Source: Lachnospiraceae bacterium (GTDB lineage Bacteria > Bacillota > Clostridia > Lachnospirales > Lachnospiraceae). Taken from it: DNA of 64,000 nucleotides. A program made the position numbers and the translations under genes. The notes under the pieces were generated by a model that searched no databases, was not told the origin of the DNA, and saw only the letters and a list, made by a program, of their open reading frames with translations. The stretch spans positions 1 through 64,000 of the forward strand of contig JAETOL010000008.1 in NCBI GenBank assembly GCA_021771755.1. Reading direction: 5' to 3'. Shown piece by piece: positions 23,033-25,410 of this stretch; the stretch's first letter is position 1; the number at the start of each line of letters is the position of its first letter.

Positions 23033-23842
23033 ATGAAAAACATGAAAAAATTTGCAGCACTTGCTCTTTGTGCAGCAATGACAACAACTATGCTTGGTGG
23101 AGTAAGCGTTTTTGCCAATGACAGTGGAATTGAAGGCGTAGATGACCTTCCGGGCAAAAAAATCGGTGTTCAGCTGGGAACTACCGGTGATATCTATGCG
23201 TCTGACTACGAGGGCGACGAAGAAGGAACTACAATTGAGCGTTTCAATAAGGCAAACGATACCGTTATGGCTTTGAAGCAGGGCAAGATCGACTGCATCA
23301 TCATCGACAGTCTTCCGGCAGAGAAATTTGTTGAGAACAATGATGATCTGGAAATTCTGGAAGAGGATTTTGCCACAGAGGAATATGCCATTGCAATAAA
23401 GAAAGGCAATGATGAGCTGACTGAAGCGATCAACGGAGCTCTTAAAGAACTGAAAGAGGACGGAACTCTGGATCAGATCAACGAAAACTATATCGGAGAT
23501 GATGACGTTAAGGGAACCTGCCCTTATGAATCTCCAAAAGATGTAGATCGTTCCAAAGGAACTCTCACAATGGCTACCAATGCGACCTTCCCTCCATATG
23601 AGTACTATGAAGGCGATAAGATCGTAGGTGTTGATGTGGATATGGCACAGGCTGTCTGCGATAAGCTGGGATATGAGCTGAAGATTGAGGATATGGAATT
23701 TAATGCAATCATAAACGCAGTAGATTCCGGTAAAGCAGATATCGGTGTAGCTGGTATGACGGTAACAGAAGATCGTAAAGCAAGTGCAAACTTTACAGAT
23801 TCTTACACAACTGCAAAACAGGTAATCATTGTCCGCAAATAA
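23033..23842 (+). CDS. Amino-acid ABC transporter substrate-binding protein with circularly permuted SBP_bac_3 domain order
   Basis: Signal peptide, then GVDDLPGKKIGVQLGTTGDIYASDYE...ALKELKEDGTLDQINENYI (normally C-terminal half), linker, then GTLTMATNATFPPYEYYEGDKIVGVDVDMAQAVCDKLG...GVAGMTVTEDRKASANFTDSYTTAKQVIIVRK (normally N-terminal half). Confidence 0.9.
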   Translation: MKNMKKFAALALCAAMTTTMLGGVSVFANDSGIEGVDDLPGKKIGVQLGTTGDIYASDYEGDEEGTTIERFNKANDTVMALKQGKIDCIIIDSLPAEKFVENNDDLEILEEDFATEEYAIAIKKGNDELTEAINGALKELKEDGTLDQINENYIGDDDVKGTCPYESPKDVDRSKGTLTMATNATFPPYEYYEGDKIVGVDVDMAQAVCDKLGYELKIEDMEFNAIINAVDSGKADIGVAGMTVTEDRKASANFTDSYTTAKQVIIVRK

Positions 23843-23891: not shown

Positions 23892-23937
23892 ATTCCGGGT
23901 ACCCGGCATCGAAACAATCGGTATGGGAACCCGGAAT
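23892..23937 (+). terminator. Stem-loop in SBP-permease intergenic region (probable attenuator or processing hairpin)
   Basis: ATTCCGGGTACCC / GGGAACCCGGAAT, 12 of 13 paired. Confidence 0.6.
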
Positions 23938-23975: not shown

Positions 23976-24677
23976 GTGGTGAATGCTTTGGCAGATTTTA
24001 TTGCAAAATTTCAATTGAATTTCATAGAAGAAAAGCGCTATGAATTTATTTTCAGTGGTCTGAAGACTACGTTGATCATTACGGCATTTGCAGTTTTGAT
24101 CGGTATTATTCTTGGATTTATCATTGCCATGATCCGTTCCACTCATGACAGAACCGGAAAAATGAAAATCCTCAATGCGATTTGTAAGGTGTATCTGACT
24201 GTGATCAGAGGAACACCGGCAATGGTACAGCTTCTGATTATGTATTATGTTGTGTTTGCGGTTCATGATCCGGGGAAAATGGTGACAGCTGTAATTGCCT
24301 TTGGTCTGAACTCTGCCGCGTATGTGGCTGAAATTGTACGTTCGGGTATCATGTCCATCGATCAGGGACAGTTTGAGGCAGGAAGAAGTCTTGGTTTCAA
24401 TTATCGTCAGACCATGCTTCTGATCATCCTTCCTCAGGCCTTTAAGAACGTGCTTCCGGCTCTTGCCAATGAATTTATCGTTCTTATGAAAGAAACTTCC
24501 ATCAGTGGTTATATTGGTATCACTGACCTGACTCGAGGCGGAGATATCATCCGAAGCCAGACTTATGAAGCTCTTCTGCCTCTTCTTGCAGTTGCAGCAA
24601 TTTATCTGGTACTTGTTATGTTCCTGTCTTATCTGGTAGGAAAGCTGGAAAGGAGGCTGAGAAACAGTGAACGCTAA
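23976..24677 (+). CDS. Polar amino-acid ABC transporter permease
   Basis: [20 protein letters not shown]...[19 protein letters not shown] start uncertain. Confidence 0.92.
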
Positions 24678-25410
24678 AGGTGAAGTATTGCTTGATGTGA
24701 AAGGACTGAAAAAATCTTTTGATGGAATGCAGGTTCTTAATGGAATCTCCACGCAGATCTGCAAAGGAGAGGTGGTTGCCATCATCGGACCTTCCGGCTG
24801 TGGAAAATCAACATTTCTTCGTTCGCTGAATCTTCTGGAAACTCCAACTGGCGGACAGATCCTGTTTGAAGGAACGGACATTACAGACAAGTCTGTAAAC
24901 GTAGATAAAATGCGCCAGAAGATCGGTATGGTATTTCAGCAGTTTAATCTGTTCCCACATCTGACCATTAAGAAAAATATTATGCTTGCACCGGAAAAAC
25001 TGGGGCTGATGACAAAAGAAGAAGCTTCCAAACGTGCAGACGAGCTGTTGGAGCGAGTTGGCCTTCCGGATAAAGCAGATGCATATCCAAGTCAGCTTTC
25101 CGGCGGACAGAAGCAGAGGATCGCTATTGCCAGAGCTTTGGCTATGAATCCGGATGTGATGCTGTTTGACGAGCCTACTTCTGCGCTGGATCCGGAAATG
25201 GTAGGAGAGGTCCTGGAGATCATGAAGGAACTTGCCCAGTCGGGAATGACCATGATAGTGGTCACACATGAGATGGGATTTGCCAGAGAGGTGGCGACTC
25301 GTGTGATGTTCATTGATGAGGGAAAGATTCAGGAAGAAAATACTCCGCAGGAGTTTTTTGCAAATCCGAAAAATCCAAGACTGAGAGAATTTTTGTCCAA
25401 AGTTTTATAA
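24667..25410 (+). CDS. Polar amino-acid ABC transporter ATP-binding protein (GlnQ-like)
   Basis: [47 protein letters not shown]. Confidence 0.95.

Follow-up and report, generated by a model that had tools for sequence, protein, structure and literature searches.

The gene located at positions 23033-23842 (+) of the window, a 64,000-nucleotide stretch of DNA from a Lachnospiraceae bacterium, raises the question of whether an amino-acid substrate-binding protein (SBP) carrying its two halves in inverse order is a natural and functional variant of the family. Its open reading frame is translated into 269 amino acids without interruption. We put at roughly 90% the probability that it encodes the predicted SBP subunit of a polar-amino-acid ABC importer whose ancestral A-B chain has been circularly permuted to B-A, A being the normal N-terminal half of an SBP_bac_3 chain and B its normal C-terminal half. 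An earlier note on this DNA had read the protein as a natural and probably functional permutation with the second SBP half preceding the first, and this reading is backed by reversed matches in Pfam, NCBIfam and the PDB, by conservation, by the operon, by selection on both halves and by the prediction of a single fold.

Indeed, a PF00497 (SBP_bac_3) profile search, which the earlier note had called for, matches the protein in two partial stretches in reversed order (125.8 bits for a cut-off of 26.4, E 1.2e-36), the top stretch bringing residues 178-269 onto positions 1-92 of the 132-position profile. Likewise, the C-terminal half of TIGR01096 (NCBIfam, profile 118-250) corresponds to residues 28-154, and both halves are well matched, reversed and in one copy each, to the PDB chain 4zv1 (AncQR), chain 8-104 aligning with residues 174-269 and chain 106-233 with residues 29-156. 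In all three alignments B stands before A, and the canonical collinear A-B order is not found. Among the solved chains listed, only 6h30 gives a single-stretch match spanning B and A (query 28-262 on chain 97-323). At the level of sequence, the window protein is confirmed as a circularly permuted SBP_bac_3 amino-acid-binding protein made of a signal peptide, B, a linker and A (Table 1). The point at which B is split into B1 and B2 was taken from the second permutation type described below (B2-A-B1), and the length and pattern of the linker (PYxSPxxVDRSNG) are alike throughout the B-A clade. A plain signal peptide without lipobox is also present in many homologues of the genus, although the latter is Gram-positive.

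Table 1. Predicted features of the permuted SBP gene and of its operon (positions in the window)
Feature	Position	Strand	Basis
Signal peptide, residues 1-28 (...GGVSVFA/ND), without lipobox cysteine	23033..23116	+	sequence
B1, lobe-2 core, normally central part of the SBP, residues 29-103	23117..23341	+	4zv1 alignment, B1 profile
B2, strand into hinge 2 and lobe-1 C-terminal part (the normal C-terminus), residues 104-156	23342..23500	+	4zv1 alignment, profiles
Linker between old C- and N-termini, residues 157-173, DDVKGTCPYESPKDVDR	23501..23551	+	29-sequence B-A alignment, linker list
A, normal N-terminal half, with hinge 1 and first lobe-2 strand at the new C-terminus, residues 174-269	23552..23839	+	PF00497, 4zv1
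Cognate permease gene (BPD_transp_1), closest in NCBIfam to cystine and glutamine permease models	23976..24677	+	profiles
Cognate ATPase gene, GlnQ/TcyN-like	24667..25410	+	profiles
Strong RNA hairpin in the SBP-permease intergenic region	23892..23937	+	folding of the region 4.5 sd more stable than that of shuffles (z -4.5)

The structure prediction that the earlier note had also called for was made with AlphaFold2 for the monomer, using an alignment of 29 natural B-A sequences, and confidently models the permuted chain as one compact fold (mean pLDDT 91.6, pTM 0.84) with no low-confidence segment, the mean pLDDT being 84-98 per block of 10, linker included. A Foldseek search of the PDB finds SBPs and related folds with a full-length TM of only 0.3-0.5, a range which is expected for a permutation, and is no proof of one, because Foldseek aligns in sequence order; one 77-column stretch superposes on 4zv1 at 0.9 Å. 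Both termini of canonical SBPs are on lobe 1, and it is these that the conserved linker of ~17-20 residues joins. Together with a monomer model that is confident throughout, this argues against the permuted SBP working only as a domain-swapped or intermolecular assembly, in which the B of one chain would close with the A of another in a dimer or a chain of molecules. Such an assembly, which we regard as unlikely, would find a parallel in the swapped elements reported for permuted ribose-binding protein constructs (PMC10601554) and in tandem-SBD proteins, where sequence-adjacent B and A belong to different domains, as in the match of 6h30 across its tandem.

In the permuted monomer that we favor, the old termini would be joined by the linker, the new ones would lie in lobe 2 right after the strand that follows hinge 1, and two lobes would still form, capture an amino acid by closing around it, and pass it on to the permease and ATPase specified by the neighboring genes; the B-A SBP should then work mechanistically like any PAAT-type binding protein. 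The positions aligned to the GlnBP ligand contacts F13, F50, G68, T70, R75, and D157 are kept in the window protein, and D10, K115, G119, and H156 are replaced by N, Q, T, and I, residues that are identical in the canonical relatives L061 and L066. With some contacts kept and others replaced, the ligand is probably an amino acid, not necessarily glutamine. Cys88 (IDCIIID; 23294-23296) is invariant in 29 of the 29 aligned B-A proteins and is an alanine in L061 and L066.

The hinges of Escherichia coli GlnBP are residues 85-89 and 181-185. Hinge 1 aligns to residues 257-261 of the window protein (YTTAK, Y257-K261), after which the chain runs 8 residues further into lobe 2, these C-terminal residues (QVIIVRK and a neighbor) forming the final strand of the predicted structure (E233-242 in the numbering of the modelled chain); hinge 2 aligns to a stretch ending at Y118. 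From this alignment, the chain would start in lobe 2, pass through crossover 2 into lobe 1, continue via the linker within lobe 1 and return through crossover 1 to the last lobe-2 strand. Both interlobe crossovers probably remain covalent, the break being in a loop just inside lobe 2, and the view of the earlier note that one hinge crossover is no longer covalent is probably wrong given this continuation past hinge 1. With the break inside lobe 2, the N-terminal anchor of B-A proteins would shift from lobe 1, its place in canonical SBPs, to lobe 2. The likeliest mechanical change would then reside in the tether, with lobe 2, and no longer lobe 1, holding the signal peptide or the lipid anchor and also, where relatives have one, the fused permease.

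The permuted protein belongs to a family in which several architectures coexist. All open reading frames of the fetched loci were scanned with profiles for A, B1, B2, permease, and ATPase, giving, duplicates included, 121 B1-B2-A, 33 B1-B2-A-permease, 66 canonical A-B1-B2, 8 B2-A-B1, and 1 (A-B1-B2)3-permease proteins. In the B2-A-B1 proteins, the lipobox is followed by sequences such as LKILDTEYADEDYAI and the chain finishes with sequences such as IDSEPAKAYVEANNQ, which locates the cut just before the strand leading into hinge 2; judged from these ends, they are a second circular permutation of the same SBP family with a distinct cut site. They are found in L207-L213, from other Clostridia families, and in Lacrimispora saccharolytica (L088:4842-5759), whose protein is predicted from natural fragment rows only with a pLDDT of 93.8 and a pTM of 0.86. 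A divergent SBP (L089:2354-3286) appears cut at a third place, inside lobe 2: when it is aligned to a canonical relative in L068, its residues 114-302 match positions 24-195 and, weakly (E 0.003), its residues 45-144 match positions 201-298. By sequence comparison, every cut site found is in lobe 2. The gene of this divergent protein lies ~1.6 kb from a canonical SBP gene. The B-A-permease fusions (~500-540 aa; L055, L059, L134, L136, L142-L147, L163-L164 and others) are joined at the new C-terminus, beside hinge 1. A divergent one, L155:903-2450 (G139), has 33% identity and an unrelated linker, and may be an independent permutation.

A tree was built on rotated sequences (92 rows). Its main B-A clade (99/92) takes in 14 of the 15 B-A-permease fusions, together with a single canonical protein, L060:4785-5690, which stands beside the B-A protein L058:351-1181 (100/99) and is a possible reversion of the permutation. 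Outside this clade, some B-A rows group with the canonical L066 and others are deep; the B2-A-B1 rows occupy two places beside different canonical proteins, in addition to that of L088. AU tests on 87 rows, with five long-branch rows left out and groups partly named after the tree was seen, reject a single never-reversed clade of all B-A proteins (p 0.006) or of all B2-A-B1 proteins (p 0.0003). They do not reject one B-A clade with L060 and L066 as reversions (p 0.17) or one B2-A-B1 clade with L070 as a reversion (p 0.086), and p is 0.075 when the main B-A clade is constrained together with L060 outside. Furthermore, the linker pattern YESPxDxDRSNG is common to the main B-A clade and L159, which favors a common B-A ancestry for both. 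We conclude firmly that the two cut sites represent separate events and that each permuted order either arose more than once or reverted.

These trees also bear on whether B and A could come from two different SBP genes and form a chimera in place of one permuted gene. The half-trees are short on columns with most forks unresolved, which leaves some room for such an origin, but the numbers of label changes are similar in both (BA 6-7 and CAB 2 in each) and the joint tree supports the permuted clade well, with canonical Clostridia relatives, making a chimera highly improbable. As to the permutation of one gene, the tandem duplication (AB-AB) followed by loss of the outer halves proposed in the earlier note is a plausible route. 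Its first step, an in-frame tandem duplication, does occur in the family, as seen in a 973-aa protein made of three nearly identical canonical A-B units and a permease (L141:913-3831, G254:C2); these copies are nearly identical and recent, and offer an example of duplication rather than an ancestor. No intermediate is seen on the actual lineage, and a tblastn search at E 10 finds no remnant of the lost outer halves beside the window gene.

It seems to us somewhat more probable than the opposite that one Clostridia amino-acid SBP family has been permuted repeatedly at two or three lobe-2 cut sites (B1-B2-A and B2-A-B1 beside the two hinges, one divergent protein deeper), with possible reversions and with a permuted form fused to the permease, and that the choice of the lobe that is tethered to the membrane or permease may be under selection. 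In A, B-A and canonical SBPs are up to ~70% identical.

The permuted order is widely conserved. The homologue search, likewise suggested in the earlier note, shows it recurring collinearly in the genus, family, order, and class. A collinear full-length or near-full-length homologue is present in ~45 of the 60 genomes of the genus (Blautia; 57-94% identity) and in ~80 of the 397 sampled Lachnospiraceae genomes (collinear match at E < 1e-59, the tandem protein of G254 being excluded), the identity range for genus and family being 44-94%. B-A homologues at 39-68% identity occur in other families of the same order and class (Clostridia), and one genome of another class of the same phylum has a divergent form (L214, 34%). 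Homologues 94%, 87%, and 77% identical to the window protein come from independent genomes, and the named records, Blautia caecimuris DSM 29492 (L034), Blautia schinkii DSM 10518 (L049), and Pseudobutyrivibrio sp. MD2005, are all isolates, which excludes a metagenome artefact. In the window's own genome, a distant paralogue of canonical order (37%) is the sole other match. Pairwise dN/dS between the window gene and four relatives is ~0.02-0.09 and is low per half where computable; against L033 and L034, dN is 0.023-0.053 for a dS of ~1.1, with low values in each half. Both halves are under strong purifying selection. An assembly rearrangement is ruled out by the conservation in independent genomes, isolates included, and an assembly error or decaying gene fragment as the source of the B-A order is barely conceivable in view of the same order in isolates and contigs of many studies, the strong purifying selection and the conserved operon. 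No plasmid-borne copy was found beyond one match of 34% to a record from Enterococcus faecalis bearing the annotation substrate-binding protein/permease, which is taken to be a tandem-SBD GlnP-type protein. L149 (G171:C48:57953-59683) harbors a tandem pair of B-A SBP genes, with ~54% and ~69% identity to the window protein.

Compared with GlnH/HisJ/ArtJ-type SBPs (PF00497; type II, cluster F), the window protein has both halves homologous, most ligand-contact positions and an operon with a GlnP-type permease and a GlnQ-type ATPase, but its halves are reversed and its termini would have moved from lobe 1 to lobe 2. The nearest precedent is TpMglB-2 (Tp0684) from Treponema pallidum, a natural circularly permuted type I sugar SBP for which 'type Ic / cluster Bc' was proposed; it binds D-glucose, changes conformation and has relatives in Gram-positive gut bacteria, and its authors suggested a link between its permutation and anchoring (PMC4990184). 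Both are natural circularly permuted ABC substrate-binding proteins with relatives in Gram-positive gut bacteria, but TpMglB-2 is permuted inside its N-lobe, making a fourth crossover, and represents a separate event in another family (PMC4990184). The matches of the window protein are to type II profiles and chains, SBP_bac_3 and its relatives, with no MglB-like one among them, and the protein falls outside type Ic / cluster Bc, which is defined by MglB homology and a type I fold. The tandem SBD1-SBD2-permease GlnPQ (6h30; PMC8025302) is of the same family, contains a B-linker-A segment within A-B-A-B and has its SBDs fused to the permease, but each SBD is canonical and the adjacent B and A are from different domains. 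Engineered permutants, from the sensor work cited in PMC7683729 and the RBP constructs cited in PMC10601554, show that permutation is tolerated by SBPs, and are designed whereas the window protein is natural. The author of the earlier note knew of no description of this arrangement, and our search of open papers, with most subscription literature outside it, likewise found none for a permuted amino-acid (type II, SBP_bac_3) SBP, the only relevant finds being TpMglB-2 and the engineered permutants.

Circular permutations found in nature tend to be isolated curiosities; in this family, close relatives display the canonical, B-A, B2-A-B1, permuted-plus-permease, and tandem forms, which illustrates how freely a two-lobed protein can be re-cut by evolution. 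With several orders in close relatives, long-standing questions become open to direct test: by what route permutations arise, whether they can reverse, and whether order or tether position alters Venus-flytrap dynamics and transport. Permuted SBPs are missed by annotation and by order-dependent structure search, and the one described here is commonly found in Blautia and in other Lachnospiraceae of the gut.

SBP, permease, and ATPase, whose joint encoding is a criterion of PAAT systems, are encoded together at the window locus. The normal permease and ATPase genes already recognized in the earlier note have counterparts directly downstream of 98 of the 105 distinct B-A ORFs. No Rfam match to a riboswitch or T-box, from which the ligand could be deduced, is present in the 64-kb window. 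The hairpin between the SBP and permease genes resembles internal terminators reported from ABC operons of Clostridia (PMC9045158), and by analogy with these it may set the SBP:permease ratio.
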